DNA of 47,626 nt from a virus. The stretch is from positions 1 through 47,626 of the IMG/VR virus record IMGVR_UViG_3300027631_001442, one strand, 5' to 3'. Under the pieces are notes generated by a model. The model ran no database searches and was not told the DNA's origin. It worked only from the letters and a program-made list of their open reading frames with translations. This document shows positions 29,390 to 45,641 of this stretch, piece by piece; position 1 is the first letter of the stretch; every line of letters begins with the position of its first letter. Both the position numbers and the translations under genes were made by a program.

Positions 29390-30332
29390 AAACATAATAG
29401 ATGTAGCTGATCTATCAACTATTTATTTAAGCTACGATGAACCGCAGAAAGAAGAATTTTGGCTAAAAATTAAAAACATGGTTCCGTGGGCTAAACGAGT
29501 GGACGGAGTTAAAGGCAGTGATGCTGCACATAAAGCAGCAGGTGAAGCAAGTGATACTGAACGCTTTATTCTAATTGATGGTGACAATATGCCTGAAGAA
29601 AGTTTCTTCAACCTGCAATTAGACTTTACTGATAAAGACCCTAAATACAAATTAGCACAATATCGTTGGAAAGCAGTTAATAGTATTAACGGATTGAGGT
29701 ATGGAAATGGAGGTATGAGTAGTTGGACAAAGACTTATGTTGCTAACATGCAAACACATGAAAATCAAACTGAAGGTGATGTTTCACGTATTGCTGATTT
29801 TTGCTTAGACAGTAAAGATAATTTATATTGGTCAATGTATGATTGTTACTCTACTACTTATCCTAATCATACGCCGTTCCAAGCGTGGCGTGCTGGGTTT
29901 CGTGAAGGAGTAAAGATGGTACTTGACAAAGGGTCAAAGCCTGATATTGATACATTCAAAGAAACTGCTGCCAAGCGTAACCTAAACAACTTAACTATAT
30001 GGCAGAATGTAGGGGCTGATGTTGAGAATGGGTTGTGGGCTATATATGGCGCACGATTGGGAACATATATGACTATGTTAACTGACTGGGAACATACCAA
30101 TGTTCAATGGTTTGATAACTATATCTCATTGTGGGAAGAACATAAAAACGTTGACCCTGCTTTTGAAGCCGCAAGTATCGGGGATTCTCTTAAAGATAAG
30201 TTAGGTTTACCCATGTGTGCGTTAGACAAAGAACAAAGTATGTTCTTTAAACGTCATTACAACGCCGACAAACATAACTTAGGCCCACTTGTAACCGAGA
30301 TGGATATAATAAGAAAAATGGAAGGTTGGTAA
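29379..30332 (+). CDS. Glycosyltransferase-like protein (GT-A type), third of three
   Basis: A 317-residue protein. Residues 40-70 read 'RVDGVKGSDAAHKAAGEA' then 'FILIDGDNM', with D67-G-D69 as DxD-type metal/nucleotide-sugar motif. The 'VDGVKG..AHKAA' block before the DxD is a pattern I associate with glycosyltransferase-like proteins of marine T4-like phages. 'RYGNGGMSSWTK' and 'NHTPFQAWRAGFREGVKM' in the C-terminal half are probably acceptor- or donor-binding segments. Substrate is unknown. Its TAA overlaps the ATG of the first radical SAM gene (TAATG at 30330-30334), physically joining the glycosyltransferase and radical SAM runs into one transcription unit. Confidence 0.75.
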   Translation: MNFENIIDVADLSTIYLSYDEPQKEEFWLKIKNMVPWAKRVDGVKGSDAAHKAAGEASDTERFILIDGDNMPEESFFNLQLDFTDKDPKYKLAQYRWKAVNSINGLRYGNGGMSSWTKTYVANMQTHENQTEGDVSRIADFCLDSKDNLYWSMYDCYSTTYPNHTPFQAWRAGFREGVKMVLDKGSKPDIDTFKETAAKRNLNNLTIWQNVGADVENGLWAIYGARLGTYMTMLTDWEHTNVQWFDNYISLWEEHKNVDPAFEAASIGDSLKDKLGLPMCALDKEQSMFFKRHYNADKHNLGPLVTEMDIIRKMEGW

Positions 30333-31897
30333 TGAACGGGGAGTACGACCAATTTGCAAGAGATATGCGTGACCGCTTGAATGCGGTCAGTCCATCACTG
30401 TGTCTTGCTAAATGGCAACAAGTTTCTATTCACTTGACTAGTGGATTAACACAAAGTTGTTATCACCCACCTACACACAAAATCCCCTTGGACTTATTAA
30501 AAGTTCAACCTAGTGTCCTACATAACACTCCTATTAAAATACATGAACGCAAGCAAATGCTTGAAGGCAAGCGTCCAGAAGGTTGTGCTTATTGCTGGAA
30601 AGTAGAAGATGCTAAGAGTGATGATCCTAAAGGTCATATGAGCGACAGACACTATCGTAGTAGTGAATGGTGGAATGCACCCACATTTGAAGAAGTAACA
30701 CAAAACAAGTTTGACTATGATGTAGTCCCTCGTTATGTAGAAGTTAACTTTAATCAAGCATGTAACTTTAAGTGTATGTATTGTAGTCCACATCTTTCTA
30801 GTAGTTGGGAAGAAGAAGTTAAGAAGCATGGTCCATATCAACTAACGAACATGGCTCACAACAACATTCAGTCGCTTGAAGAAAAAGGTATAATGCCACT
30901 TAAGGTTGCTAATAAAGATAATCCTTATGTTGAAGCATTTTGGCAATGGTTCCCTGAAATCTATCGTAAACTACGTGTGTTTAGAATGACAGGTGGCGAG
31001 CCACTCATGGACAAGAACACATTCAAAGTATTAGACTATGTGAATGAGAATCCTCATGGTCAACTAGAGTTGAGTATTACTAGTAATATGTGTCCTCCTG
31101 AGCAGAAGTTGTTTGATAAGTTTGTTGAAAAAGTCAAGGCATTAGAAGAACTACGTACATACGAAGATAAAGAAAACTTTAACGTACATAGCGGTAATAA
31201 TTGGTATGTAGACAAGGGATTCAAGCACTTTTGGTTGTTTGTATCATTGGATGGATATGGTAAGCAAGCAGAATATATGAGAACCGGGTTAGAGTTTGAA
31301 CGCTTGATGAATAACGTTAGAACCTTTTTGCGTGAAACAAAATATTCTACTGTGAGTTTTATTAACACGTTCAATATCATGTCTATTCCTAGCCTTCATA
31401 ATTTCCTAGCTATGGTCTTAGATTTAAGAGCAGAGTTTGGTGGAAGAAGCCAAGTTGAGTTTGAGATTGCCCCCGACCAAACTGAAACTGAAAAAGAAAA
31501 TAACATTGTACACAAAGTATATACACAAAAGAAATATCAGCGGGTGTTCTTTGATATACCAATATTGCGTTACCCACCGTGGTTTAGCATACAGAATGCC
31601 GGAGACTATGGCATTAACGAAGTTGAACATTGCTTACATTACATGGAAGAAAATGTTCAAGGAAACGACTATTTAGAAACATTTGAGGGATTTAAACCCT
31701 ATGAGATATTGAAAATTAAACGAGACCTTGCTATAATGAAGGAAACTCTATCACAAGAACAATTGTTACTAAATAAGAAGAACTTCTACATGTTTATCAT
31801 AGAATATGATAGACGTAGACAAACAAATTTTATAGAAACTTTTCCAGAACTAAAAAGTTACTGGAAAGAGTGTATTAAAGCACATACCAAACATTAA
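30332..31897 (+). CDS. Radical SAM protein 1, N-terminal twitch type, class A
   Basis: A 521-residue protein. Radical SAM cysteines are C144, C148 and C151 (CNFKCMYC), which bind the 4Fe-4S cluster that cleaves S-adenosylmethionine; the SAM-binding GGEP is at 221-224. Before the core lies a cysteine domain, C24 (CLAKW), C43 (SCYHP), C85 and C88 (CAYCW), the twitch-like auxiliary-cluster site of the family NCBI calls twitch domain-containing radical SAM protein. 'MSDR' (103-106) links the two domains. 'AEYMRTG' and a C-terminal 'YDRRRQTNFIETFPEL' are shared with paralogues. It is the longest of the set, with an extra segment at about 265-290. The start is the ATG in TAATG; a TTG two codons upstream is less likely. 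Substrate unknown. Confidence 0.9.
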   Translation: MNGEYDQFARDMRDRLNAVSPSLCLAKWQQVSIHLTSGLTQSCYHPPTHKIPLDLLKVQPSVLHNTPIKIHERKQMLEGKRPEGCAYCWKVEDAKSDDPKGHMSDRHYRSSEWWNAPTFEEVTQNKFDYDVVPRYVEVNFNQACNFKCMYCSPHLSSSWEEEVKKHGPYQLTNMAHNNIQSLEEKGIMPLKVANKDNPYVEAFWQWFPEIYRKLRVFRMTGGEPLMDKNTFKVLDYVNENPHGQLELSITSNMCPPEQKLFDKFVEKVKALEELRTYEDKENFNVHSGNNWYVDKGFKHFWLFVSLDGYGKQAEYMRTGLEFERLMNNVRTFLRETKYSTVSFINTFNIMSIPSLHNFLAMVLDLRAEFGGRSQVEFEIAPDQTETEKENNIVHKVYTQKKYQRVFFDIPILRYPPWFSIQNAGDYGINEVEHCLHYMEENVQGNDYLETFEGFKPYEILKIKRDLAIMKETLSQEQLLLNKKNFYMFIIEYDRRRQTNFIETFPELKSYWKECIKAHTKH

Positions 31898-31905
31898 GGC
31901 ATAAC

Positions 31906-33435
31906 ATGGCAGGTAAAAAACATACAGAGAGTTTTGCAGAATACAAGGCAAGACTAATCGATCCAATCAGCGAAAGTTATTGTGCAGCAAAATGGCTAAA
32001 TGCTACTATTTGGTTAGGGAACGGACAAACAACAAGTTGTCACCACCCATTAGGGCATCAAATTAATGCTGCTGAATTAATTACTAATCCATCAGCAATT
32101 CACAACACACCGCATAAAAAGTACATGCGTAAGTTGATGCAGGAGGGACAACGTCCTCAAGAGTGCGAATATTGCTGGAAGATTGAAGATATTGGTCGTA
32201 ATAATATGAGCGACCGTGTTTATAAAACTGCTGTGTTTGAAGAAAGCGACATCTTACGTACTGCTAAAGCAGATTGGCAAGAGAATACAATGTTAAAGAC
32301 ATTGGAAATTAGTTTTGATCGCACATGTAATTTTGCTTGTAGTTATTGCAATCCAAGTTTTAGCACAACATGGGTTAAAGACATTCACAAATTTGGACCA
32401 TATCGTAATATTGACGGTGATGCACGTAGTCACTTTATCAATGAGGCTGACCATGCCAAGCCATTAGCAGATGACATAAATCCATATATTCAGGCATTCT
32501 GGAAATGGTGGGAACAAGAAGATGGTCTTGCTGATAATTTAGAGGAAATTCGCATTACCGGTGGAGAGCCACTTATGGCTCCTGGTGTATGGAAATTGTT
32601 TGAATGGTTTAAGAATAATCAAGAACGAGTTAAGAATCGTAAAGACGGCAAAGTTATGCGTTATGCAATTAACAGTAATCTAGTACCTAAAGATGATATC
32701 ATGGATAAGTTAATTGAATTGAGCCATTTTGTACCTCACTTAGAAGTATATACTAGTTGTGAAGCATTTGGAGCACAGGCAGAATACATTCGTGATGGAT
32801 TTGAATGGAGCAAATGGATTCATAATTTAAAACGTTTACATACTGAAGGTAATATCAAAAAGACACACATGATGATGACTATTAATAGTTTGTGTTTGTC
32901 TAGTATTGTTGAATTTATGGATCAAATGATGGAATTCAAAAAGATTCACGACACCCCATATCCAACAATGAGTTTGAACATCTTACGTTTTCCTAGCTTT
33001 CAAAGTTGTACAATGTTGCCAATGGATATTCGTCAGAAATATGCGATAGAATTGCAAACATGGTTAGATGCACAGATTGCTGCTGATTTCAGAACAACTG
33101 ACGGTACACCAATGTTACAATCAATTGAACGTGAACAAACTCAACGGTTAATTGACTATTTGGATGTAATTAAAACTCCGCACAAAAACGTTAAAGATAT
33201 TCCACAAAATCATAGAGACTTTAAACAGTTCTATGCTCAGTATGATGTCCGTCGTGGTAAGAGTTTCAGAAATACTTTCCCACCAGAGTTTGTTGCTTTC
33301 TATGATAGTATAGAAACAGAGTTACCGACAGCCAATGAAATTATTACACAGAATTATCGTACGGGGGTTGATTTGATTCCGGATCATCCACCTGAAGATC
33401 CAAGCAAAGAAGTGTTCTTTAATCCTGATCTATAA
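31906..33435 (+). CDS. Radical SAM protein 2, N-terminal twitch type, class A
   Basis: A 509-residue protein. The N-terminal cluster domain has C26 (CAAKW), C45 (SCHHP), C87 and C90 (CEYCW); 'MSDR' is at 101-104; radical SAM cysteines are C141, C145, C148 (CNFACSYC), followed by 'NPSFSTTW'; GGEP begins at 219. 'EVYTSCEAFG' sits where most radical SAM proteins have S-x-D-G, so the acidic residue is replaced by Cys-Glu. 'AEYIRDGFEW' and the tail motif 'YDVRRGKSFRNTFPPEF' follow. A Pro/Asp-rich extension of about 40 residues after that tail is unique in the set. It is separated by eight bases from gene 1, with AGG as a possible ribosome binding site, and its stop overlaps gene 3 (TAATG). Confidence 0.9.
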   Translation: MAGKKHTESFAEYKARLIDPISESYCAAKWLNATIWLGNGQTTSCHHPLGHQINAAELITNPSAIHNTPHKKYMRKLMQEGQRPQECEYCWKIEDIGRNNMSDRVYKTAVFEESDILRTAKADWQENTMLKTLEISFDRTCNFACSYCNPSFSTTWVKDIHKFGPYRNIDGDARSHFINEADHAKPLADDINPYIQAFWKWWEQEDGLADNLEEIRITGGEPLMAPGVWKLFEWFKNNQERVKNRKDGKVMRYAINSNLVPKDDIMDKLIELSHFVPHLEVYTSCEAFGAQAEYIRDGFEWSKWIHNLKRLHTEGNIKKTHMMMTINSLCLSSIVEFMDQMMEFKKIHDTPYPTMSLNILRFPSFQSCTMLPMDIRQKYAIELQTWLDAQIAADFRTTDGTPMLQSIEREQTQRLIDYLDVIKTPHKNVKDIPQNHRDFKQFYAQYDVRRGKSFRNTFPPEFVAFYDSIETELPTANEIITQNYRTGVDLIPDHPPEDPSKEVFFNPDL

Positions 33436-34826
33436 TGACAAATAAAATTATCCCTGTGTGGGAACATTCCAAACCTCATAAAGATAGTCAGAACAAGGTG
33501 TTTTGTATGGCACCTTGGACTCACACGTATATCAGTCCTCAAAGTGAACGTAGATTGTGTTGCGCCTCACGTGAAGAACATTCTTTTCAAAAACAATATA
33601 TTGATAGTTCAAACGATTCAAAGTATGGGTTAGTAACTGAATCTAAAACAGTACTAGATGATTATAAACCAATAAGTTTAAAAGAACACTGGAATAGTGA
33701 TTACATGAAAGATATTCGTATAAAGCTAATGCGTGGTGAAGAGATTCCACAATGTGATGTATGTAACAAAAATCTATTGATGGAAGGATATAGTTATCGA
33801 GGTTGGTTTACTGGATCATTATTTCACGATAAGATACAAGAGGCATTTGATAGTACAGACGATACGGGTTACACAACAATGGAACCAATCAGTTTTGATT
33901 ATCGTTTTAGCAATCTATGTAACTTTAAATGTCGTATGTGCGGTGAGCAACTAAGTTCAACTTGGGAAACTGAAAAGAAAGTTCATAATATGTGGACACC
34001 AAAGAATCAGCCATTCATGATTCCTGAAATTAAATCAGCAATGAAAACTTTTCAAGAAGAAGTTGTTGAAGTTGAATTTCGTGATGCTGTTAGTCGCGGC
34101 ATCATAGAAGAAATGTATTGGGTTGGCGGAGAGCCATTGATGTATGACATACATTGGTGGACATTGGAAGAAATGTTAAAGAACGGCAGTAATAAGAAAT
34201 GTTACATGCGCTATAATAGCAACCTAAGTCGTATACAATTTGGTGATAAAAACTTATATAACTACCTACCACTATATAAAGATTGGATGATGTGTGCAAG
34301 TATTGATGGTACTGGTGAGATAGTAGAGTATATTCGTACTGGTATTAAATGGGACAAATGGTTAGATAACTTTAAACAAGGCTTATTATTGCCAAATGGA
34401 AAAGACAAGATGGTGCTTGATTTAACATTGACAGCACCGGGCATGTTTAGCTTAAAAGAGTTGTTTGACTTGAGTATAGAATTAGATGTAAAGATTGAAA
34501 CAAAAACAACATTTGGATTTCATAATGATATAATGTGGACACCGTTGAGTTGGCCTAGACCTATACTAAATGACATGGTAGATGATATATTAGAATATAT
34601 TACCCCAAGAGTATCTTGGAAACAACATACATTAGTAGGAAATCTTGAAGCATTAAAGAATACACGTAAAACACATGAAGAAGAATGGCCTGACACATTT
34701 AAGCAGGGCGCTAAAAACGGTAAAGGTTGGGTAGAGCAATTAGAAAAAATACGTGATAATACATTAACAATGCGTGACATATACAGTCGTAATCCTGAAT
34801 TATTAAAGTGGTGGAACAATATTTAA
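33435..34826 (+). CDS. Radical SAM protein 3, N-terminal twitch type, class B
   Basis: A 463-residue protein. The N-terminal domain carries C24 in 'FCMAPW', the tandem C42-C43 and C107/C110 (CDVC), the class B pattern. About 35 extra residues lie between CC and the 'LMRGEEIPQCD' helix compared with its relatives. 'YSYRGW' (120-124) replaces the class A SDR link. Radical SAM cysteines are C162, C166, C169 (CNFKCRMC) followed by 'GEQLSSTW'; GGEP starts at 231. 'SIDGTGEIVEYIRTGIKW' has an intact S-x-D-G. The C-terminus 'LTMRDIYSRNPELLKWW' is a divergent form of the shared tail. TAATG overlap upstream, one base gap downstream. Confidence 0.9.
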   Translation: MTNKIIPVWEHSKPHKDSQNKVFCMAPWTHTYISPQSERRLCCASREEHSFQKQYIDSSNDSKYGLVTESKTVLDDYKPISLKEHWNSDYMKDIRIKLMRGEEIPQCDVCNKNLLMEGYSYRGWFTGSLFHDKIQEAFDSTDDTGYTTMEPISFDYRFSNLCNFKCRMCGEQLSSTWETEKKVHNMWTPKNQPFMIPEIKSAMKTFQEEVVEVEFRDAVSRGIIEEMYWVGGEPLMYDIHWWTLEEMLKNGSNKKCYMRYNSNLSRIQFGDKNLYNYLPLYKDWMMCASIDGTGEIVEYIRTGIKWDKWLDNFKQGLLLPNGKDKMVLDLTLTAPGMFSLKELFDLSIELDVKIETKTTFGFHNDIMWTPLSWPRPILNDMVDDILEYITPRVSWKQHTLVGNLEALKNTRKTHEEEWPDTFKQGAKNGKGWVEQLEKIRDNTLTMRDIYSRNPELLKWWNNI

Positions 34827-34827
34827 T

Positions 34828-36006
34828 ATGAGTGATACATTATGCGTACTCCCTTGGATGCATTTAGCTACACATCCCAATGGAGGTGCTAGCTTATGTT
34901 GCCGCAGTAACCATACTCATGCTATTAGTTGGGCAAAGAAAAGCGATTCACAAAATTTAGTAATGCTTGACAATGATTCAATTGAAGAAATAATGAATAG
35001 TGATAAGTTTATTCAAGTTAGGCAAGCAATGATTGATGGTAAACGCCCAGTTGAATGCGAAGGTTGCTGGAGTGATGAAGATAAAAATATTAAAAGTAAA
35101 CGTCAATACGAGAACGAGCGATGGACACATATTATTCCACTTTTAGAAAAGTCTGCTAGATTACAAAATATTGATTTGAGATACGTAGAATTACGATTGG
35201 GAAATATTTGTAATAATGCCTGTTTAACGTGTAACAGTTATAGTAGTAGCAAATGGTATCCAGATGAAAAGAAAATTGCTAAGGTATTACCTTGGTTTGA
35301 ATTGAGACCACTAGAGAATTTTAAATGGTTTGAAAAACCTGAGTTTTATAAAGATTTAGCTGAAAAAAGCCAAAATGTAGAAGAAATATATATCAATGGT
35401 GGAGAACCCACGTTGATTAAAGCACATTTTGAATATCTAAAAGATTTAATTATCCTAGGAGTTGCAGATAAGGTACATCTTGTGTATAGCTTAAACATGA
35501 TGGATATACCTGATAATTTAATTGAATTATGGAAAAGTTTTAAGCAAGTGACAGTTAATGCCAGCATTGATGATTTAAACGAACGTAACTATTATATTCG
35601 TTACCCTACACAATGGGAAGAAACAGTGTCAAGTATTGAGAAACTAACTAAGTTGTCAAACTTAAATTGGCATGTTACTCAAACTGTCAGCATACTCAAT
35701 ATCTATCATTTAGCCGAGTTTGGTAATTGGTTAGAGACTAATTACAATAAAACACCGCATCACAACTATGTATTATACCCAGACTATTTAAGTATTGCGA
35801 CATTGCCAGATTTCTATAAAGAAGAATTGCGTAGCCATTACGCAACCAGATTACATGAATGGCAACGCAAAGATTTATTAAATAAACTGCATGAACCGTA
35901 CCAACCCGACTTGCTACAAAAAGCAAAAGAGTTTATAATAGCAGTTGACAACGCACGTGGGTTAGACTATAAAGATTATATACCAGAATTAAAAGATATA
36001 CTATGA
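34828..36006 (+). CDS. Radical SAM protein 4, N-terminal twitch type, class B
   Basis: A 392-residue protein, among the shortest. The N-terminal cluster domain starts almost at once: C6 ('LCVLPW'), C24-C25 ('SLCCRS'), C77/C80 (CEGCW). 'KSKR' (89-92) is the link motif. Radical SAM cysteines are C128, C132, C135 (CNNACLTC), then 'NSYSSSKW'; GGEP starts at 191. Where relatives have E-Y-I-R-x-G it has 'NYYIRYP', so the conserved Glu and Gly are both lost, which may mark a different substrate pocket. The tail 'NARGLDYKDYIPELKDIL' retains R....D..PEL. ATGA overlap with the next gene. Confidence 0.9.
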   Translation: MSDTLCVLPWMHLATHPNGGASLCCRSNHTHAISWAKKSDSQNLVMLDNDSIEEIMNSDKFIQVRQAMIDGKRPVECEGCWSDEDKNIKSKRQYENERWTHIIPLLEKSARLQNIDLRYVELRLGNICNNACLTCNSYSSSKWYPDEKKIAKVLPWFELRPLENFKWFEKPEFYKDLAEKSQNVEEIYINGGEPTLIKAHFEYLKDLIILGVADKVHLVYSLNMMDIPDNLIELWKSFKQVTVNASIDDLNERNYYIRYPTQWEETVSSIEKLTKLSNLNWHVTQTVSILNIYHLAEFGNWLETNYNKTPHHNYVLYPDYLSIATLPDFYKEELRSHYATRLHEWQRKDLLNKLHEPYQPDLLQKAKEFIIAVDNARGLDYKDYIPELKDIL

Positions 36007-37289
36007 TACCAATAATACCTGATAAAATTAAAGATTCATTCTGTTCAGCTAAATGGTTGATGGCTACCATGCACTTTGGTATGGGTGAAAATCACTCATG
36101 CTATCACCCACCTATACATCGTTGGAACTTAGAAGATGTTAAGCGTGATCCTAGTATGCTTCATAACACACAACACAAGATTGAACAACGCAGACAGATG
36201 ATGAATGGTGAAAAGCCGAAAGAATGCTACTACTGCTTTGACATGGAAGCAATCAATTCAGATGTTATTAGCGATAGAAAACGTTTTACTAATGAAGAAT
36301 ATGCAATTGAACGTAGACAAGAAATACTTGATGCACCTTTTCACAAACACATCAATCCAAGTTATTTAGAGTTAAGTTTTAGTAATGTGTGTAACTTTGG
36401 TTGCAGTTACTGTAGCCCTGGACAATCAAGTAAGTGGGAACAAGAAGTACGTAAGTATGGTAGTTATCCAATTGAAGACCACACTGTTCATAAAGATAAA
36501 ATGCACGATATGATTCCAGAAGATAATAATCCATACATTGATGCATTCTGGAAGTGGTTACCTGATGCGTACACGGATTTAAAGTACTTGCGTATTACAG
36601 GTGGTGAGCCGCTTGCCACACGTAACTTTATGAAGTTGTTAGACTTTGTATCAGTTAATCATAATCCTAATTTAACATTAGTTGTTAATACAAATTTATG
36701 TGTTCCTGATAAAAACTTAAACGCTTTTTTTGAGAAAGCAACAACTTTACTAAATGCCAAAACTATTAAAGGTCTAGAAGTTTACACAAGTATGGATACA
36801 TGGGGACCGCAAGCAGAATATATACGTGACGGATTAGATATTGACCGTTGGGAACAAACTGTACGTAAAGTCAGCACAACGTTTCATGTACCTATTCGTG
36901 TTATGGTTACTTTTGGATTAATGAGTATTTTTAATTTTCAACAATTTGTTGAAAAAACTATACAGATGCGTAGAGAAGGGATTGATATTATGTTTAATTG
37001 TGCAAGATTAACCGATCCTAAACAGTTTGATTTAAGAATACTACCTGATTCTGTTGATAAATACTTCACTACTACGAATACCTTCATAACCAATAACGGA
37101 TATGTTGCAAACGTAGAAAAAGAAACGTGGGCTATGGTCTATGATTTTTGGAAAGCAAGACATAACACAATGACACCCGAAGACAGATCATGGCGCAAAG
37201 ATCAATTTGCTAAGTTTATTTGTGAATATAACAAACGCAGAGATAAAAATTTTAAAGAAACCTTCCCAGAGTTGGTAGCATGGATTTAA
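36003..37289 (+). CDS. Radical SAM protein 5, N-terminal twitch type, class A
   Basis: A 428-residue protein. C14 (CSAKW), C33 (SCYHP), C75 and C78 (CYYCF) form the auxiliary site; 'ISDR' is at 89-92; radical SAM cysteines are C130, C134, C137 (CNFGCSYC) followed by 'SPGQSSKWEQEVRKYG', close to the same stretch in proteins 1 and 11. GGEP starts at 200. 'SMDTWGPQAEYIRDG' follows, and the tail is 'YNKRRDKNFKETFPEL'. A class A core with all motifs intact makes it a good reference copy. Its start is inside the previous stop (ATGA); its last ten bases overlap protein 6. Confidence 0.92.
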   Translation: MIPIIPDKIKDSFCSAKWLMATMHFGMGENHSCYHPPIHRWNLEDVKRDPSMLHNTQHKIEQRRQMMNGEKPKECYYCFDMEAINSDVISDRKRFTNEEYAIERRQEILDAPFHKHINPSYLELSFSNVCNFGCSYCSPGQSSKWEQEVRKYGSYPIEDHTVHKDKMHDMIPEDNNPYIDAFWKWLPDAYTDLKYLRITGGEPLATRNFMKLLDFVSVNHNPNLTLVVNTNLCVPDKNLNAFFEKATTLLNAKTIKGLEVYTSMDTWGPQAEYIRDGLDIDRWEQTVRKVSTTFHVPIRVMVTFGLMSIFNFQQFVEKTIQMRREGIDIMFNCARLTDPKQFDLRILPDSVDKYFTTTNTFITNNGYVANVEKETWAMVYDFWKARHNTMTPEDRSWRKDQFAKFICEYNKRRDKNFKETFPELVAWI

Positions 37290-38476
37290 CACCTTATAAA
37301 AACTGTCTAGCATTAAAAAATAGTATCTTTATTGCAAATGAAAAAAATCCATACAGACCTTGTTGCTGGTTTAAAACCCAAATTGATGCTACTGATATTC
37401 ATGATTATAAAAAACAATTAGCCGAAATAGATATTAAAACTAATTGCGATTACTGTATTCAACAGGATAACGGTGGAACATATAGTTACAGACAGCACTT
37501 CACTGAAGTTGATGAGTTGATAATAACTGTATCTTTTGACAATATTTGTAATTTAAAATGCATCACTTGTACTCCAAATAATAGTACTCAAATTCTTGTG
37601 GAACGTTTAAAGTTTCATGACAAAGTTAATGATCAAAATATTAAGAAATATTTTGATGAAATAATTATTAAACAAGCACCTAAAAAAATAGATTTTATTA
37701 AATCTATGCTAGCAGATGTTAAATTTAAAAAATTACGATTTGATATATTAGGAGGCGAGCCCTTAATAAATCCTGCTATTTTTGAATTTTTGGATTGGTT
37801 AGCTGAACAATCATACGCTGACCAAACAAACCTATCAATTACAACTAACGGCACAACATACAATGACAAATTGTTAAAGTATGTGCGTATCTTTAAAAAG
37901 ATAAGTGTGCAATTAAGTATAGATGGTATTGGTGCAGAATTTGAATATCTTAGATATGGAGCCTCATTTAAAACTTTAGAAAAAGTATGTGATTCATTTT
38001 ATGAGCTAACAAAGAAAAATGATAATTTTTATATGGGTTGTCATTACACATTATCTTGGATGAATTGTTTAAAATTTGCAGAATTTTTTAATTGGATACA
38101 AAATAGATATCCTGATATTGATCAAATCTACGTTAGTAAATTACAAGAACCATATCAATATTCAATTGAAGCAATGTCATTTGACATGCGTAAACGTGCA
38201 TATGATTTAGTTTCTAGTAAAATTAAACTTATTAGTCAACCATACAAAAAAGCTATGTTTTTATACAAAGAGCATATGTTAAATACAACATATGATACTT
38301 TTGATTTAGAAAAAATCAAACATGGTATGGGAACTTTGACGGTATCTGATAATATTCGAGGTAATAAAAATATAGATATAGTTTACGACTTCATTAATTT
38401 TTTTAACTTAAGTGAATTAGTTAAAGTTAACGTAGGTGAATTAGTTAGAGCAAGTAAATTAGTTAAACTTAAGTGA
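37280..38476 (+). CDS. Radical SAM protein 6, N-terminal twitch type, divergent class B
   Basis: A 398-residue protein. C9, C28-C29 ('RPCCWF') and C56/C59 (CDYC) are in class B order, but the 'PW' after the first Cys is missing (CLALKN) and the linker between CC and the C-x-x-C pair is only about 26 residues. 'YSYRQHF' is the link motif. Radical SAM cysteines are C90, C94, C97 (CNLKCITC); GGEP starts at 158. 'SIDGIGAEFEYLRYG' is intact. Composition is more Lys/Asn/Ile-rich than its neighbours. The tail is not R..F..FPEL but a run of 'ELVKVNVGELVRASKLVKLK', made by local repeats (38405-38480), so the original C-terminus seems lost. It overlaps gene 5 by ten bases; 23 bases separate it from gene 7. 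Confidence 0.85.
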   Translation: MDLTPYKNCLALKNSIFIANEKNPYRPCCWFKTQIDATDIHDYKKQLAEIDIKTNCDYCIQQDNGGTYSYRQHFTEVDELIITVSFDNICNLKCITCTPNNSTQILVERLKFHDKVNDQNIKKYFDEIIIKQAPKKIDFIKSMLADVKFKKLRFDILGGEPLINPAIFEFLDWLAEQSYADQTNLSITTNGTTYNDKLLKYVRIFKKISVQLSIDGIGAEFEYLRYGASFKTLEKVCDSFYELTKKNDNFYMGCHYTLSWMNCLKFAEFFNWIQNRYPDIDQIYVSKLQEPYQYSIEAMSFDMRKRAYDLVSSKIKLISQPYKKAMFLYKEHMLNTTYDTFDLEKIKHGMGTLTVSDNIRGNKNIDIVYDFINFFNLSELVKVNVGELVRASKLVKLK

Positions 38477-38480
38477 ATTA
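38405..38480 (+). repeat. Imperfect repeats ending radical SAM gene 6
   Basis: A 15-base unit (AACTTAAGTGAATTA) occurs at 38405-38419 and again at 38466-38480, 61 bases apart, with further GTGAATTAGTTA-like copies between. Because 61 is not a multiple of three, the second copy is read in another frame and its TGA (38474-38476) is the stop codon. Confidence 0.85.
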
Positions 38481-38499
38481 AACCCCTCTCTTTTAAAAT

Positions 38500-39822
38500 A
38501 TGCAATTACCTAACGCAGAAAAACTTACACAAAAATTACCAGAATCATTCTGTAGCGTCCCGTGGTTACAAATTCATACTGAACCTGATGGTAAAGTATT
38601 CCCGTGCTGTTATTATGGTCATGCAGAAAATCATAAACTAGGCAACTGGAACGATCAAAAAATTAAAGATATCTTTCACGGAGACAAATGGAATGAATTA
38701 CGTAAGGATTTCTTAGATGGTAAAAAACCGGTAGCATGTTCACGTTGCTGGAAAGAAGAAGATTCAGGAATTGTGAGTATGCGCCAAAAATTTAATGAAC
38801 GCTATCATAACTTCCCTGACTATAATTATAAAAATTTGTATGACAAGTTCACTGATATCATTAATGAAACTAAAACTGATGGCTCTGTTGGAGACATCAA
38901 ACTTGCAACTATTGATTTGATATTTAATAATATATGTAATATGAAATGCAGGACGTGCGGTCCTGGGTTAAGTACAGCATGGATGGCTGATTCAAAAAAA
39001 TTGAATCGTAAAAATAATAATTTGGTAACATTACTCACTAATGAAACGGTCACTCATATGAAAGATGATTTAGTTACATTAGTTGAAATGGTTGATCCTT
39101 GTACTGAAATTCATTTCAGTGGTGGCGAACCTATGATGCAAGAAGATCATTATAAATTTTTACAACTGTTGATTGATATGGGAAAAACTAAAATAAAAAT
39201 TAGATACAATACTAATATGACAGTATTCATCCTCAAAGAATACAATGCATTTGAGATGCTACAGCATTTTGAAAATGTATTCATTGTGGGTAGTTGTGAT
39301 TCAATGGGTAAGCAAGGGGAATATATTCGTAAAGGATTTGATTGGGAAAAGGCGCTTGATTGGTTAAAAACATGCAAAGAATATTTACCCAATGCTGAGT
39401 ACGGAGTTAGTGCCGTATATAGTTTATTAAATGCATCTACTGCGATAGATTTACATAGATATATGTGTGAGAGTAAATTATTTAGACGAGGTAATGGTCA
39501 ACCCTTTGGTTTTTATTTAAACACGTTGTCTGAACCCTATTATTTAAAAACTACCTTACTACCATCTGATGTAAAACTAGAAGTTACGGAAAAAATAAAC
39601 AAACATATTGAATGGTTATCTGATACACAAGAACATGATATACATTACAATGTGTATCTAGAACATTGGAAGAATGCAATCATCTTTATGAATAGTGCCG
39701 ACAATTCTAATATAATACCTATTTTTTACAATAGAACTAATTTGTTAGATGATATTAGAAATGAAAAGTTTGAAGATGTATTTCCAGAATTACATGAAAA
39801 GATGAAACCATATGACAAATGA
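38500..39822 (+). CDS. Radical SAM protein 7, N-terminal twitch type, class B
   Basis: A 440-residue protein. C18 ('FCSVPW'), C36-C37 ('FPCCYYG'), C80/C83 (CSRCW) form a textbook class B site with 'LGNWNDQKIKDIFHGDKW' between them. 'SMRQKF' (93-98) links to the core. Radical SAM cysteines are C146, C150, C153 (CNMKCRTC), then 'GPGLSTAW'; GGEP starts at 208. 'GSCDSMGKQGEYIRKG' has Cys-Asp where S-x-D-G is usual. The tail 'DIRNEKFEDVFPELHEKM' carries R...F.D.FPEL. No Shine-Dalgarno is visible: the 23-base leader reads CCCCTCTCTTTT, so translation may depend on coupling. It overlaps the next gene by 11 bases. Confidence 0.9.
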   Translation: MQLPNAEKLTQKLPESFCSVPWLQIHTEPDGKVFPCCYYGHAENHKLGNWNDQKIKDIFHGDKWNELRKDFLDGKKPVACSRCWKEEDSGIVSMRQKFNERYHNFPDYNYKNLYDKFTDIINETKTDGSVGDIKLATIDLIFNNICNMKCRTCGPGLSTAWMADSKKLNRKNNNLVTLLTNETVTHMKDDLVTLVEMVDPCTEIHFSGGEPMMQEDHYKFLQLLIDMGKTKIKIRYNTNMTVFILKEYNAFEMLQHFENVFIVGSCDSMGKQGEYIRKGFDWEKALDWLKTCKEYLPNAEYGVSAVYSLLNASTAIDLHRYMCESKLFRRGNGQPFGFYLNTLSEPYYLKTTLLPSDVKLEVTEKINKHIEWLSDTQEHDIHYNVYLEHWKNAIIFMNSADNSNIIPIFYNRTNLLDDIRNEKFEDVFPELHEKMKPYDK

Positions 39823-41125
39823 TTTTAATCCAGTTGAGATGGCAAAAAGTAGTAAAACGTTTTGCATCTTTCCGTGGATACAACAATATGTAGGTCCACC
39901 GGGAGATGTAAAACCTTGCTGTGTATATGATAACCAAGATGAGATAGGCAGTCTAAAAGAAAACACATTAGCTGAGATTTGGAACAACGACAAAACAAAA
40001 CAGATGCGTTTGAATTTTCTTAACGGAATAGAAGAACCTAGCTGTAGTATATGTAACCGGCGTGCAGTATTGGGACATGCACATAAGAATGAATATAATA
40101 GAATGTTCTTTGATAATGATGAAGAAATTCAAAAAATTGTAGCAAATACTAATCCAGACGGATCTTTAGATGAGCATAAGCTATTCTACATTGATGTTAG
40201 ATATAACAATCTATGTAACTTAAGCTGCCGCAGTTGTGCCCCTCACTTTAGCACAAGTTGGGTAATGGATCATCGTAAGTTATATAATTTAGTTGAAAGA
40301 CGAGACAAGGACGACGGCTTTCAGTTTCCGGGTAAGACTGAAGAACAAGCATTAGAAGAAATATTACCTCACTTAGCTACAGCAAAAATGATTTATTTTG
40401 CAGGTGGCGAACCACTAATGCAAAAAGAACATTATGAAGTACTTAATAAGCTGATTGAATTAGATAATACGGATTTGGAAATACGTTACAATACAAATTT
40501 CAGTAATTTTAAATTGAAAAAATATAACAACGTATTAGAGTATTGGAAGAAGTTTAGTAACGTTCACGTATATGCTAGTTTAGATGGTAACCATAAAAGG
40601 GGTGAGTACTGGCGTAATGGCATTGTTTGGAAACAAGTTGTAGATAATCGTAAACAGATGATGGAAGAATGCCCGCACGTACACTTTATGATTTCATATA
40701 CATTAAGCTGGCCTAATGCGTTTAACTTAGTTGAGTTTCATAGAGAATGGGCAGAGTTAGGTTATCTAAAACCGGAGAATATGTTAGTTAACCCATTAGA
40801 CACTCCGCCTTATTATTGTTTAAAGAATATACCAAAATGGAAGAAGCGAGAGATAGAAGAAGCACTACAGAAGAATATAGATTGGCTTAAATCTTTTAGA
40901 GAACCTTACGGAATCATAAGTATGTATGAGACAGCAATCAAATTCATGTGGGATGAGACCGGTCAATATCATACTGGTATTAATGAAAGTTTGAAAGAAT
41001 TCAATAAGATTACTACTAAGTTAGATGAAATTCGTGATCAAAGTTTCTTTGATGTTTACCCCGAGCATGTGAATATAAAAAATTATATAATTCATAATAA
41101 TTTGAATGTTGAATTTAAGTACTGA
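39812..41125 (+). CDS. Radical SAM protein 8, N-terminal twitch type, class B
   Basis: A 437-residue protein, the closest relative in the set to protein 7. C18 ('FCIFPW'), C36-C37 ('KPCCVYD') and C78/C81 (CSIC) form the auxiliary site, with 'IGSLKENTLAEIWNNDKT' between them. The link motif is 'GHAHKN', replacing S-x-R. Radical SAM cysteines are C135, C139, C142 (CNLSCRSC), then 'APHFSTSW'; GGEP starts at 198. 'SLDGNHKRGEYWRNG' is intact for S-x-D-G. The tail 'EIRDQSFFDVYPEH' keeps R..F.D..PE. ATG lies inside the previous gene; the TGA overlaps the next ATG (TGATG). Confidence 0.9.
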   Translation: MTNDFNPVEMAKSSKTFCIFPWIQQYVGPPGDVKPCCVYDNQDEIGSLKENTLAEIWNNDKTKQMRLNFLNGIEEPSCSICNRRAVLGHAHKNEYNRMFFDNDEEIQKIVANTNPDGSLDEHKLFYIDVRYNNLCNLSCRSCAPHFSTSWVMDHRKLYNLVERRDKDDGFQFPGKTEEQALEEILPHLATAKMIYFAGGEPLMQKEHYEVLNKLIELDNTDLEIRYNTNFSNFKLKKYNNVLEYWKKFSNVHVYASLDGNHKRGEYWRNGIVWKQVVDNRKQMMEECPHVHFMISYTLSWPNAFNLVEFHREWAELGYLKPENMLVNPLDTPPYYCLKNIPKWKKREIEEALQKNIDWLKSFREPYGIISMYETAIKFMWDETGQYHTGINESLKEFNKITTKLDEIRDQSFFDVYPEHVNIKNYIIHNNLNVEFKY

Positions 41126-42378
41126 TGGACGAAAAGAAATTATTTAAAATTAAGGCTGAAACTAGCCCAACTATGTGTTTGGCTAAGTTTCATGAAGCCA
41201 GTATTTGGGTTTATTCTGGTAAGATTGCTAGCTGCCATTATACCCCGTTCATCCAAGTCGGCAGTACAGTAGATACATTTTATAATCCATTAGAAAAACG
41301 TGAACAGCAAAAACGCATGTTAGCCGGCGAACAACCTCCGGCATGTAATAGTTGTTGGCATTATGAAAACTTAGGATTACGTAGTGATAGAACACGCAAG
41401 AGTTTAAGTTTTAAGGACCATTTATCAAGTGAAGATTACAAAAATCCTAACTATGTATTCAAACCCAAGGCGTTAGAGTTAGCATTCCATAACACTTGTA
41501 ATCTAGCATGTAGTTATTGCAGCCCACAATTTAGCACAAGTTGGATGAATGATATTAGAGTGAATGGTGTTTACAATGATATTACTACTGACGACCGTAG
41601 GCATTATCAAAAAAGTATTATAGAAATAGAAGAAATGATTGACCCTCCCGACATGAATTTGTTTTGGGAATGGTTTACCAACATCGCCGAAAATCTGGAA
41701 AGCATACGTGTATCTGGCGGCGAACCGTTAATGCATGAAGAAGTGTTTCGTGTATTTGAAATGATGACCAATATTAACCCTAACATTGAATGTGTAATAC
41801 ATAGTAATTTGTGTCAGAAGCCAGTTATAATGGATCGTTTCTTTGATAAAATTAGTGGCCTAACTAATTTGCGTATGAATATTAGTAACGAAAGTGCAGG
41901 GGAAACCGCTGAGTTTATTCGTGAGGGTATGGTATACACCGAATGGTTAGAAAATATTGAGCGTTTGGGTAATAGCACAGTAAAAGAGTTTAGTATTAGT
42001 ACTACCGTAAGTGCTATTGCATTACAAACGTTAGATCAAATGTATTTAGATATCATTAATATCCGCAAGCGAACCAAAGTTAAACCTTATATATCAATTA
42101 ATATGGTTGACAAACCTGACTTTCAAGGGTTTGGCTGCTTAACAAAGGCTGAACGTGAGTTCTATATAAGTAAATACACTGAGTTTTATAAATATATTGA
42201 TAGTGATTTACTATCAATAGAACGTGAACATTGCGGAAGATTGCTAAAGATGTTAGATAGCGGGTTAATAAAAAAAAATCAACCGCAATTAAGAATAGAT
42301 AGTGATATCTTTTTTGAACAATATACTAAACGTAGAAATAAGTCCAATAATCTAGCAAAATATATAGGATTAAAATAA
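41125..42378 (+). CDS. Radical SAM protein 9, N-terminal twitch type, class A
   Basis: A 417-residue protein. C18 (CLAKF, Phe replacing Trp), C37 (SCHYT), C74/C77 (CNSCW) form the auxiliary site; 'RSDR' at 86-89; radical SAM cysteines are C125, C129, C132 (CNLACSYC), then 'SPQFSTSW'; GGEP starts at 198. 'NISNESAGETAEFIREG' stands where S-x-D-G is usual, so the Asp is replaced by Glu in a shifted context. The C-terminus 'YTKRRNKSNNLAKYIGL' keeps RR but has lost the FPE part, so the tail looks truncated. Joined by TGATG upstream and TAATG downstream. Confidence 0.9.
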   Translation: MDEKKLFKIKAETSPTMCLAKFHEASIWVYSGKIASCHYTPFIQVGSTVDTFYNPLEKREQQKRMLAGEQPPACNSCWHYENLGLRSDRTRKSLSFKDHLSSEDYKNPNYVFKPKALELAFHNTCNLACSYCSPQFSTSWMNDIRVNGVYNDITTDDRRHYQKSIIEIEEMIDPPDMNLFWEWFTNIAENLESIRVSGGEPLMHEEVFRVFEMMTNINPNIECVIHSNLCQKPVIMDRFFDKISGLTNLRMNISNESAGETAEFIREGMVYTEWLENIERLGNSTVKEFSISTTVSAIALQTLDQMYLDIINIRKRTKVKPYISINMVDKPDFQGFGCLTKAEREFYISKYTEFYKYIDSDLLSIEREHCGRLLKMLDSGLIKKNQPQLRIDSDIFFEQYTKRRNKSNNLAKYIGLK

Positions 42379-43565
42379 TGGAAAAAATGTACGGTAAAAT
42401 AACAAGATTGCACATTGAATTGTCTAGTAGATGTAATGCTAGTTGTGCCGCATGTAGCAGAAATTTTTCTGGTGGTCCGGTCGTTCCAGATTTAGAATTG
42501 ACATCATTATCATTAGATGATATCAAAAGAATGATTCCTATTGAAATAGTCAAAAATTTACAGGGTATTAATTACTGCGGTAATGTCGGTGATCCTGGTA
42601 TGGCACCTGACGTATTACCTATAATGCAATATTTTAGTGAACACAGTACAAAAATGGTACAGCAAATGAGAACCAATGGTGGAATGCGTAATTTTAAATT
42701 TTGGACTGCATTAGGTGAGTTTTTTGTCAAACAACCTAAGTTTTCGGAAAATCATTTATTTGATCAACCGGGTGTAGTTTTTAGTGTTGATGGATTAGAA
42801 GATACTAATCACATTTATCGCCGTGGGGTAAAATGGGAAAAGTTAATAGCTAACATGCGAGCCTACAGTGCTACTGGTGCAACTGCAATTTGGGAATGGT
42901 TGCTGTTTGAACACAATAAACATCAGGTTGATGAAGCAAACGCATTAGCTAATGAATTGGGATTTGTTTTTATAATAAAAAATCCAATGGGGTTTGGAGA
43001 ATACGCCGGACGAGTAACTCCAATGAATGTTTATAACAAAGTAGGACAATATGAGTATAGCATTTGGCCTGCTAATGTTGTAAATAAAACAGAAACTCCC
43101 GAGGTAGGGTATGTTGTTGACTTTAATAAAGAGACACTTCTAAATATGAAACACAAAATAATACCAATTATCAATGAGTTTGGTAAAAGTTTAGAAAAAG
43201 ATAACATAGTATGTAAGTCAATACAATATAAAAACAATGGAGAAGTGTATATTTCAGCCAATGGATACATGTTACCGTGTTGTTTCTTGGGAGGAGTGTT
43301 TGGAAACTTCAATACCTCATATTCACGTTATCAGTTTAATACTCTGATTACTGAGTACGGGATTGACAAATTTAATTTAAAGAACTCTAATATGGTAGAG
43401 ATAATGAACGGCCCGCATTTTCAAAAATTCTTCTTAGATGCATGGAAAAAAGACACCATTGTCAATGGTAAGTTATTATTTTGTTTAGAAACATGTGGAA
43501 CAAAATCAGCTATAGACAAGTTATATGTTAAGAGATCCAGCATTATTGAAGAGGTAGTCCTATGA
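42378..43565 (+). CDS. Radical SAM protein 10, SPASM-like type
   Basis: A 395-residue protein unlike the other ten. The radical SAM motif is at the very N-terminus (C19, C23, C26; CNASCAAC), with no twitch domain before it. Auxiliary-cluster cysteines instead lie at the C-terminus: C279, C301-C302 ('LPCCFLG'), C369 and C373 (CLETC), the SPASM-like arrangement of peptide-modifying enzymes such as anaerobic sulfatase maturases. 'CGNVGDPGMAPD' occupies the GGEP position, as in some SPASM enzymes with GxxGDP. 'SVDGLEDTNHIYRRGVKW' supplies S-x-D-G. Because SPASM proteins often modify ribosomal peptides or proteins, this gene supports a protein substrate for the cluster, but that is inference. Overlaps the preceding stop (TAATG). 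Confidence 0.88.
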   Translation: MEKMYGKITRLHIELSSRCNASCAACSRNFSGGPVVPDLELTSLSLDDIKRMIPIEIVKNLQGINYCGNVGDPGMAPDVLPIMQYFSEHSTKMVQQMRTNGGMRNFKFWTALGEFFVKQPKFSENHLFDQPGVVFSVDGLEDTNHIYRRGVKWEKLIANMRAYSATGATAIWEWLLFEHNKHQVDEANALANELGFVFIIKNPMGFGEYAGRVTPMNVYNKVGQYEYSIWPANVVNKTETPEVGYVVDFNKETLLNMKHKIIPIINEFGKSLEKDNIVCKSIQYKNNGEVYISANGYMLPCCFLGGVFGNFNTSYSRYQFNTLITEYGIDKFNLKNSNMVEIMNGPHFQKFFLDAWKKDTIVNGKLLFCLETCGTKSAIDKLYVKRSSIIEEVVL

Positions 43566-43594
43566 GTAAAGAAATTACCGAGAGATATGAATGA
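43562..43594 (+). other. Ten-codon ORF bridging two genes
   Basis: ATG at 43562 overlaps the TGA of radical SAM gene 10 and runs MSKEITERYE to a TGA at 43592-43594 that overlaps the ATG of the SGNH gene at 43591. Two ATGA junctions in a row would let a terminating ribosome reinitiate twice. It is probably a coupling device or remnant rather than a functional peptide. Confidence 0.3.
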
Positions 43595-44334
43595 GCATCA
43601 TCGACAGAGTAATAATATTAGGTGATAGTTTTACTTTTGGACACGGTTGTTCAGACAGAATATACTATTATGATGAAGACCTTAAAAAATTTATAGGTGA
43701 CCTAACTACTATTAAACGTGGTATTCCAAGTGAATACTGTTGGGGGTCACTATTACAAAAAGAACTTCCTAATCTAAAAGTGTATAATTTATCACAACCT
43801 GGTCATTGTAATCAAGGTATGTTTAGAAACTTGTTAGATTTTTATGTCAACATTGACTTTTTTAATACAAATGATTTAATTATATTCAATGGCACGCATT
43901 CAGATAGAATAGAAATTAGAACAATGTATCACGAAGACCAAGTAGGATCATGGGCTATGGGATGGGAATATATGGCCGGTGAGCAAGATTTTAAAGAATA
44001 TATTTTAGCACAAAAATATTATACCAAATATCTATACCATGAGAAAATAGGAATTAATTTGACAATAAGTTCTTTGCTAAGTGCATATGGTTATTCTACC
44101 CTAAAAAAACATATATTTTTATATAGTCTACCTAATAATGGAGATCTTTCAATAATACCTCATTACCTACACGACCATAATATACCAGAAATAATGGCTT
44201 ATGATTTTTCGGGAATAAATGATTATCAATTTAATATAACATGTGAAGCCAAAGATACCCACACTAATGAAAAGGGGCATCAAATTTATTATGAAAAAGA
44301 AATAAAACCCCGCATACAAAAATTTATAAGTTAA
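43591..44334 (+). CDS. SGNH/GDSL hydrolase-like protein 1
   Basis: A 247-residue protein with SGNH blocks: block I 'ILGDSFTFGHG' (residues 9-19, nucleophile Ser in GDS), block II 'NLSQPGHCNQGM' (oxyanion Gly), block III 'IIFNGTHSD' and block V 'DTHTNEKGH' (Asp-x-His). Such enzymes add or remove acyl groups, often acetyl, on glycans or lipids. No signal peptide is present, so it acts in the cell or on the virion. It sits between radical SAM genes 10 and 11. Substrate unknown. The start ATG overlaps a mini-ORF stop; two bases separate it from the next gene. Confidence 0.8.
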   Translation: MSIIDRVIILGDSFTFGHGCSDRIYYYDEDLKKFIGDLTTIKRGIPSEYCWGSLLQKELPNLKVYNLSQPGHCNQGMFRNLLDFYVNIDFFNTNDLIIFNGTHSDRIEIRTMYHEDQVGSWAMGWEYMAGEQDFKEYILAQKYYTKYLYHEKIGINLTISSLLSAYGYSTLKKHIFLYSLPNNGDLSIIPHYLHDHNIPEIMAYDFSGINDYQFNITCEAKDTHTNEKGHQIYYEKEIKPRIQKFIS

Positions 44335-44336
44335 TA

Positions 44337-45641
44337 ATGAAAAAAATATTTCCCATAGTTAATGATGCAGCCTGTTTATATAAATGGGCATGGAGTACCT
44401 TATTTTTAAGTAGAGGAACTACCTCAAGCTGTCACCGCGGCCGTCATTGGAGATTGACTGAAGACAACTTTATGGATTTTCACAATCACCACGGGAAGCT
44501 AGCTGATAGAGAAAAAATGGCAAGTGGTGAATGGCCAGGTAACGGATGTGAATACTGTAGAGACATTGAAAAGACCGGAGGCAAAAGTGATAGAACAGGA
44601 TTCGTTAATGAATCAATTGAATTGTTGCCTCCAGAGTTTGAAGGATATGTACAACGTGCATATGAGTTTGATATTATTCCATTAAAAGTTAGCCCTACTT
44701 TACTTGAAGTCTACTTCAATAATGTATGCAATCAATCATGTGTATATTGTACCCCTGGTTTCAGTAGTCAAATTGAACAAGAAGTTCGTAAATTTGGACC
44801 TAGTGAGTTTAACCAAGATTACAGCACATGGCGTCCTGATAGTAAGTATGAATTATACAAAGAAAAGTTTTGGGAATGGATGGAAAAGAATAGTGAGCAC
44901 TTGCAAATTTTACAAGTGTTAGGTGGCGAACCGTTATATCAGAAAGAATTTGAACAATGTTTAGATTTCGTTGACAGAAATCCTAGACCCAATTTGGTAT
45001 ATCGTTCATTCAGTAATTTAAAGCATGATCCTGAAAAGTTTAAAGCAAAGATTCAACGTGTTCAGAATTTGATTGACCAAGGCAAATTAAAACGTATGGA
45101 GTTTGTTTGTAGTATTGATTGCTGGGGACCTGAGATTGAGTATGTGCGAGACGGATTGATACTGAAAGACTGGGAACAGAATCTAAACACTTTATTACAT
45201 TCACCGGGTGTAGGTGTATTAATTCATGCTACACTCACCGCACTAACATTACCTACACTGCATCAATTAATTGAGAAAACAAACGAATGGCGCAAGATTA
45301 AAGAAACAGTTGGGATCAACTGGAACACAGTAGTTAGACCGTCAACATTTAATCCATACAATTTTGGTAAATATTTGGCACCGTTTATTGATGCATCAAT
45401 TCAAGCATTAGAAAATTATAGTAATCCCGTAGAAAGAGAAAAACTACAAACTCATTTAATGGGTATACAACAACAACTATTGACTACTCCTGCAAACAAG
45501 AAAGAAGTTAATGATTTTGCTAACTTCTTAGCTGATATAGATAAACGTAGAAATAGAGACTGGCAAGCAATATTTCCTCAGATTGTAGACATAATAAATA
45601 CTATTAACAAAGAGGAGCTGGATCATGTTCAAGTGGATTAA
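44337..45641 (+). CDS. Radical SAM protein 11, N-terminal twitch type, class A
   Basis: A 434-residue protein. C13 (CLYKW), C32 (SCHRG), C71/C74 (CEYCR, Arg replacing Trp) form the auxiliary site; 'KSDR' at 83-86; radical SAM cysteines are C131, C135, C138 (CNQSCVYC), then 'TPGFSSQIEQEVRKFG'. The glycine-rich SAM motif is 'LGGEP' with GGEP starting at 196. 'SIDCWGPEIEYVRDG' has Cys for Gly after S-x-D, as in several class A members. The tail 'DKRRNRDWQAIFPQI' is a looser form of RR..F..FPE. It is separated from the other ten by the SGNH gene. Its 3' end contains the promoter-like motif, ribosome binding site and start of the 34-residue gene. Confidence 0.9.
   Translation: MKKIFPIVNDAACLYKWAWSTLFLSRGTTSSCHRGRHWRLTEDNFMDFHNHHGKLADREKMASGEWPGNGCEYCRDIEKTGGKSDRTGFVNESIELLPPEFEGYVQRAYEFDIIPLKVSPTLLEVYFNNVCNQSCVYCTPGFSSQIEQEVRKFGPSEFNQDYSTWRPDSKYELYKEKFWEWMEKNSEHLQILQVLGGEPLYQKEFEQCLDFVDRNPRPNLVYRSFSNLKHDPEKFKAKIQRVQNLIDQGKLKRMEFVCSIDCWGPEIEYVRDGLILKDWEQNLNTLLHSPGVGVLIHATLTALTLPTLHQLIEKTNEWRKIKETVGINWNTVVRPSTFNPYNFGKYLAPFIDASIQALENYSNPVEREKLQTHLMGIQQQLLTTPANKKEVNDFANFLADIDKRRNRDWQAIFPQIVDIINTINKEELDHVQVD
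45593..45617 (+). promoter_or_regulatory. AATAAATA motif and strong RBS for the 34-residue gene
   Basis: An exact NATAAATA octamer (45593-45600) lies inside the end of radical SAM gene 11. T4-like spacing gives +1 at about 45606, then AGAGGAG (45611-45617) seven bases before the ATG at 45625. This is the strongest Shine-Dalgarno in the right half of the window and matches the layout at 24881-24912. The octamer codes Ile-Asn-Thr in frame, so chance cannot be excluded. Confidence 0.5.

Follow-up and report, generated by a model that had tools for sequence, protein, structure and literature searches.

Eleven diverged radical SAM genes behind a conserved block of tail-fiber and GT8-like genes in a viral genome

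Radical S-adenosylmethionine (SAM) enzymes perform chemistry that few others manage, and most known pathways use one or a few of them per product. What, then, would a virus do with eleven in a row? The question is raised by the virus record IMGVR_UViG_3300027631_001442, positions 1 to 47,626 (hereafter the window, meaning the whole stretch of 47,626 nucleotides that was analyzed), in which eleven intact radical SAM open reading frames (ORFs) form a single run at 30332-45641. Here, we show that ten diverged twitch-domain members and one SPASM member, each an old, separate orthologue, stand behind a fixed block of tail-fiber and GT8-like glycosyltransferase genes. The ten belong to N_Twi_rSAM (NCBIfam NF033640, "twitch domain-containing radical SAM protein"), abbreviated N_Twi below. 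The array is real, under strong selection and widespread among aquatic T4-like phages, and it is part of a larger module made up of u206, two tail-fiber genes, u101, a GT8-like pair, u114, GT317 and the N_Twi genes themselves. The array probably builds or decorates an unusual sugar structure.

Composition and conservation of the array

All eleven ORFs carry the motif C-x3-C-x2-C and ten of them GGEP, as a sequence-only reading of the window had reported, and the same ten pass the curated NF033640 cut-off of 170 bits with near full-length alignments (176-355 bits). The remaining copy, p10, scores 45 bits, below that cut-off, and is not an N_Twi member. The genes of the run are as follows.

30332..31897, + strand: p1, N_Twi radical SAM (282 bits vs the cut-off of 170)
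31906..33435, + strand: p2, N_Twi radical SAM (292 bits)
33435..34826, + strand: p3, N_Twi radical SAM (290 bits)
34828..36006, + strand: p4, N_Twi radical SAM (339 bits; its conserved cysteines are those of the cluster region only)
36003..37289, + strand: p5, N_Twi radical SAM (285 bits)
37280..38476, + strand: p6, N_Twi radical SAM with a shortened N-terminal domain (176 bits)
38500..39822, + strand: p7, N_Twi radical SAM (355 bits)
39812..41125, + strand: p8, N_Twi radical SAM (354 bits; structure predicted)
41125..42378, + strand: p9, N_Twi radical SAM (232 bits)
42378..43565, + strand: p10, radical SAM of another family, without GGEP (radical SAM domain first, SPASM C-terminal)
43591..44334, + strand: SGNH-like gene (GDSFTFG motif; orthologues 37-67%)
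44337..45641, + strand: p11, N_Twi radical SAM (233 bits)

Overlaps of stop and start had been described at nearly all junctions. This holds for six of the nine direct radical SAM junctions (1-11 bp). At the remaining three, the genes stand 1, 8 and 23 bp apart, and the SGNH-like gene lies between the tenth and eleventh copies. The start of p1 is an ATG at 30332 that overlaps the stop of the preceding gene.

All eleven genes recur in the same order in eight further IMG/VR records (40-352 kb), two of which are near-identical, leaving seven distinct viruses. Four records have extra copies at fixed insertion places, and radical SAM matches number 11-17 per record. Orthologues of the window genes share 57-96% identity, and in a 111-sequence tree each of the eleven positions forms its own clade (support 99-100%; 86% for p10), which bears out the suggestion that every position is an orthologous group. 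The further suggestion that each position is under selection also held: between the relatives G004 and G005, the ratio of nonsynonymous to synonymous substitution rates (dN/dS) could be measured without saturation of dS at nine radical SAM positions and is 0.03-0.12 there, indicating purifying selection. All seven cluster cysteines are retained in 693 of 701 full-length viral members. Two circumstances that the sequence-only reading had named as fatal to its case were tested and failed. Pseudogenes or decaying DNA are ruled out by the kept cysteines together with the low dN/dS, and an assembly artefact by the identical gene order across independent assemblies.

Linkage to a tail-fiber block

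Two viral scans gave 159 loci from 125 distinct virus groups; these loci were found through an N_Twi gene, and the counts are conditional on that. They contain 876 N_Twi genes, 868 of them on the strand of the query gene. At least three lie within ~21 kb in 145 of the 159 loci, and the largest groups have 14 distinct copies. Relatives are encoded by at least 595 IMG/VR stretches, indicating that the family is common in viral contigs.

Recognizable genes of the block u206-tf1-tf2-u101-GT1/2-u114 (or another small gene, such as f191)-GT317 stand before the array in 95 of the 125 virus groups, the block being partly hidden by contig ends in many loci, and GT317 often directly abuts the first radical SAM gene. 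In the converse search, GT317 was used alone, without radical SAM, and the closest 80 loci were taken, 53 of which have complete flanks. Every one of these 53 has N_Twi genes (at least three in 45), and every one has tf1, tf2, u101 and GT1/2; u114 is present in 52. In the window, the genes ahead of the array are these.

550..999, + strand: gp25-like baseplate wedge subunit, which puts the module beside T4-like baseplate genes (PHROG 261/43, E-value 3e-7)
1052..4426, + strand: gp6-like baseplate wedge subunit (PHROG 10646, E-value 7e-254; PHROG 219, E-value 5e-16)
4450..24096, + strand: giant virion structural protein of 6548 aa (PHROG 10938 "virion structural protein", E-value 2e-118 for one piece of the protein)
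24260..24880, + strand: u206, conserved, precedes the fibers (PHROG 11259; ~90% identity in relatives)
24912..26162, + strand: tf1, tail-fiber-like, with a Peptidase_G2 autoproteolytic chaperone domain (PF11962 above cut-off; 53/53 GT317-centered loci)
26172..27131, + strand: tf2, tail-fiber-like by position and composition (53/53 GT317-centered loci)
27180..27485, + strand: u101, small conserved gene after the fibers
27482..28294, + strand: GT1, candidate GT8-like (glycogenin-like) glycosyltransferase (family profile vs glycogenin, E-value 1e-3)
28266..29048, + strand: GT2, same family as GT1 (same family profile; PHROG 1903)
29045..29389, + strand: u114, small conserved gene (52/53 GT317-centered loci)
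29379..30332, + strand: GT317, 317-aa gene abutting the array (77-80% identity in relatives; has a DGDN motif and resembles a glycosyltransferase in appearance alone)

By PHROG matches and gene order, the array thus sits behind the gp25/gp6 baseplate genes and the giant structural gene, together with the tail fibers. With T4-like baseplate and giant virion genes upstream, the region matches what has been called the "host recognition cluster" in T4-like phages (PMC7029224). The giant gene takes up 41% of the window and is rich in Thr, Asn, Ser and Ile, with 0.3% Cys; its counterparts in relatives are 6145-6420 aa long at ~48-58% identity. Judged by gene order, it possibly occupies the VrlC position of pelagimyophages. 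As for short precursor-peptide genes near the array, the small genes u101 and u114 are conserved ORFs of 101-114 aa without a Cys-rich or repeat-rich core. None of the isolated phages in INPHARED has GT317, GT2 or u101, and no isolated phage with p2 was found.

Enzyme family and predicted fold

An N-terminal auxiliary-cluster domain had been proposed for ten copies, and profile comparison agrees, the best PDB match of this domain being the twitch domain of BtrN (E-value 2e-9, cysteines aligned). The N-terminal twitch cysteines and CxxxCxxC are invariant across the ten N_Twi copies of the window, which show 17-32% identity to the first sequence of their alignment. The C-terminal SPASM domain of SPASM peptide maturases is found in p10 alone among the eleven, with a match barely above cut-off, and in p3, p4, p7 and p8 the SPASM model matches the N-terminus instead. 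Prokaryotic viperin was considered and rejected, as array copies reach at most 31 bits against the NF038283 cut-off of 180 bits. Cofactor enzymes were likewise rejected, with 0 of 11 copies over any NCBIfam cofactor-pathway cut-off.

The predicted structure of p8 (predicted local distance difference test, pLDDT, 86.7) has radical SAM enzymes as its top PDB matches, led by BlsE, GDGT-MAS, MoaA, SkfB and anSME, with modest template-modeling (TM) scores of about 0.3-0.4. Given that these include both sugar and peptide enzymes at modest scores, the chemistry cannot be read from the fold. Extra invariant cysteines vary from position to position in the array, which fits different reactions; in p4 and p5, invariant cysteines are confined to the cluster region.

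Bacterial relatives

Bacterial relatives were sought in 58 genomes of one class, that of a Bdellovibrionales metagenome-assembled genome, and 11 of the 58 contain an N_Twi member over the cut-off. When bacterial members are added to the tree, p1 clusters with two bacterial enzymes (support 99/95), p2 with another two (100/94), to one of which it is 45% identical over 483 aa,, p4 with a bacterial clade (100/100) and p10 with bacterial SPASM enzymes that adjoin bacterial N_Twi genes (100/99), while p7 joins one bacterial enzyme with weaker support. Because array positions interleave with bacterial lineages, a single amplification within a phage is ruled out, and the array represents an old gene set rather than one amplified gene.

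Neighbors of the bacterial N_Twi genes include glycosyltransferases of group 1 (ten) and family 2 (six), ABC-2 exporter membrane proteins (four), DegT and a carbamoyltransferase; the ABC exporters are of the polysaccharide (Wzm/Wzt) type. One 1.8-Mb genome of this bacterial class (G013; L132, L133 and L134) contains eight N_Twi genes, including a run of four. Two of its N_Twi clusters adjoin transporter operons of one kind (ABC_transp_aux/DUF4340), and p10-like SPASM partners lie next to N_Twi genes.

Accessory and neighboring genes

Two further genes follow p11 in the window.

45726..46556, + strand: second SGNH-like gene (GCSFTFG motif; orthologues 37-51%)
46553..47626, + strand: NodU-like carbamoyltransferase, cut by the window end (PF02543, E-value 2e-35; PHROG 1601)

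The sequence-only reading had listed three glycosyltransferase-like genes, two SGNH genes and a carbamoyltransferase beside the array. The carbamoyltransferase stands, and two of the glycosyltransferases are weakly GT8-like. The third, GT317, is matchless, and the SGNH-like genes, with no Pfam or NCBIfam match, are named from their GDSFTFG and GCSFTFG motifs only. Profile comparison of GT317 with the GT8-like family gave a probability of 3%, no support for a relation, and its AlphaFold model (pLDDT 39) was too poor and was not used.

NodU-like carbamoyltransferases lie near arrays in 52 virus groups, and a StrB1-like amidinotransferase family near N_Twi arrays in 21. One of the latter genes (L257:2604-3605) resembles the inosamine-phosphate amidinotransferase StrB1, an enzyme of the streptomycin pathway (E-value 5e-16), and its family is found in 20 further groups. 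Within other viral arrays are genes for a DegT aminotransferase, UDP-glucose/GDP-mannose dehydrogenase, NAD-epimerase/GDP-mannose dehydratase and several methyltransferases. Two large, conserved families, f49 (A14; e.g. L242:15641-16720) and f64 (A13), lie within or just after arrays in 49 and 64 virus groups, respectively; tested members have no Pfam match, and the f64 profile gave nothing useful against PDB. Further genes, seen in single arrays among L143-L301, are one like tryptophan halogenase, one for a fatty acid desaturase and one like the TctA transporter.

A swappable extra gene stands between GT317 and p1 in G001/G008, G005, G006 and G007; it is methyltransferase-like in G005 and, by eye, sulfotransferase-like in G001, G006 and G007. 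It is absent from the window, from G002 and from G004. A repeat gene of ~1300-1450 aa follows the carbamoyltransferase in G005 (79029-83312, L050 into L051) and also in G002, G003 and G004. This gene consists of repeats such as FDFSWHPDPTEPPYIYVFGNQW, and a C-terminal stretch is related to GT317 (~29% identity).

Proposed function

The setting of the array, with its module linkage and sugar-type neighbors, fits a multi-step modification pathway, as had been proposed from the sequence. We favor a putative glycan-tailoring pathway, with the tail fiber as the most likely carrier, and give this a probability of roughly 0.5. It is suggested by the block that precedes the array (95 of 125 groups and all 53 converse loci), by the wealth of glycosyltransferases and polysaccharide-type ABC exporters beside the bacterial N_Twi genes, and by the genes for sugar-nucleotide enzymes and for amidino-, carbamoyl-, amino- and methyltransferases among the array neighbors. 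In addition, the twitch domain is nearest to that of BtrN, a sugar-alcohol (aminocyclitol) dehydrogenase, and the top fold match of p8, BlsE, is a sugar-nucleotide decarboxylase.

Several observations weigh against this proposal. SkfB, anSME and EpeE, which have peptide or protein substrates, are also among the p8 fold matches, so that structure leaves sugar versus peptide undecided. The resemblance of GT1 and GT2 to GT8 is weak (as a family profile, E-value 1e-3 to glycogenin), and GT317 has no match in Pfam, NCBIfam or PDB. The carbamoyl-, amidino- and sugar-nucleotide enzymes are variable, and the best-conserved block is the one that holds the tail fibers. Sugar genes are generally common near the tail fibers of T4-like phages, and the bacterial neighbor set was drawn from one genome class.

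Under the glycan-tailoring proposal, the GT8-like enzymes, perhaps with GT317, would put sugars on a carrier during infection, most likely the tail fiber, with the host envelope a less likely choice. The radical SAM enzymes would then each make a different C-H change, such as oxidation, epimerization or deoxygenation, at a single residue or position in the glycan or its precursors. Groups would be added by carbamoyl- and methyltransferases and, in relatives, by amidino- or aminotransferases. The likely use would be altered host recognition, or hiding of the virion from rivals or defenses. A more far-reaching version is a dedicated pathway, common in lakes and in the sea, in which 10-14 different radical SAM enzymes work in sequence on a tail-fiber glycan without known counterpart. 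This glycan, which might bear guanidino or carbamoyl groups, would serve host recognition or stealth; this version we regard as tentative and rather doubtful.

The rival that survives best, although we think it unlikely, is that the array remodels host surface polysaccharide during infection, so as to mask receptors or exclude superinfecting phages; the same has been proposed for pelagimyophage glycosyltransferases. O-chain modification by phage GT8 enzymes has been suggested for the same genomic region (PMC7029224), and the bacterial N_Twi genes lie near Wzm/Wzt-type exporters and a carbamoyltransferase. However, such remodeling would not need strict tail-fiber linkage, and a phage-encoded exporter was not recognized within the window.

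Next, and improbable in our view, the radical SAM enzymes might modify tail-fiber or virion proteins directly, one residue each, in the manner of maturases of ribosomally synthesized and post-translationally modified peptides (epimerization, cross-links, or backbone and side-chain changes). Tail-fiber genes are constant neighbors (53 of 53 loci), the fold matches include SkfB, anSME and EpeE, additional invariant cysteines of the sort used by epimerases occur at several positions, and p10 has a SPASM domain. Yet the tail fibers (46-66% conserved) change faster than most array enzymes (72-93% at the seven positions p1-p5, p8 and p9), a difference that mildly favors a conserved small substrate over fast-changing protein targets. 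Moreover, p4 and p5 have no invariant cysteine beyond the cluster region, the auxiliary domain is N-terminal and BtrN-like, and the bacterial relatives are located with polysaccharide genes.

Finally, the genes might be auxiliary metabolic genes that support the cofactor or iron-sulfur metabolism of the host, the reading that the authors of PMC2853527 and PMC5332604 gave to their multi-radical-SAM phages (Campylobacter phages and a marine T4-like genome). This is very improbable here, given that no copy passes a cofactor-pathway cut-off and that host metabolic genes do not usually form a fixed, fiber-linked block of paralogues.

A widespread fiber-linked phage module, typically with 4-14 diverged members, suggests that much chemistry awaits exploration where phage and host meet. 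Since the positions are stable orthologue groups, some with bacterial cousins, their reactions are testable individually.

Comparison with known systems

A high number of radical SAM genes per phage is already known and is not new. The sequence-only reading had held that phages carry one or a few such genes and had known of no described system of this form; in view of published phages, neither statement is supported (PMC2853527, PMC5332604, PMC7029224). The Campylobacter phages CP220 and CPt10 (Firehammervirus) were reported in 2010 to have 11 and 12 radical SAM genes, five of them in an exchangeable cluster that also has a putative glycine amidinotransferase gene (PMC2853527); our recount with the Pfam model gives 11 each. 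Shared features are a distant T4-like kinship, the 11-12 radical SAM genes and an amidinotransferase partner, a type also seen near N_Twi arrays. In contrast to the window, their genes are dispersed except for about five, and none passes the N_Twi cut-off, all belonging to other families. The 183-kb marine T4-like genome TARA_ERS488813_N000010 has 12 radical SAM genes, reported as a count in an iron-sulfur context (PMC5332604); it may plausibly carry the same system as the window.

The isolated 255-kb Vibrio phage K566 has five N_Twi-like genes, two of them over the cut-off. However, these show 22-24% identity to the queried window genes and lie on both strands, and the stretch read has no annotated tail-fiber block. 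BtrN, from butirosin biosynthesis (PDB 4m7s/4m7t), likewise belongs to the radical SAM enzymes and has one twitch auxiliary domain with aligned cysteines, but that domain is C-terminal in BtrN and N-terminal in the array enzymes. Among open-licence papers, we found no description of an N_Twi array in fixed order, of its constant linkage with fibers and GT8-like genes, of its positional orthology or of its bacterial cousins.

The closest setting is that of the pelagimyophages, which are T4-like and have, after VrlC, a host recognition cluster with tail fibers, GT8 glycosyltransferases and radical SAM cassettes (PMC7029224). Those cassettes are named without an ordered array or fixed block, and freshwater members are without them (PMC7029224). 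The module described here extends the modification islands of phage host-recognition regions, a known kind.

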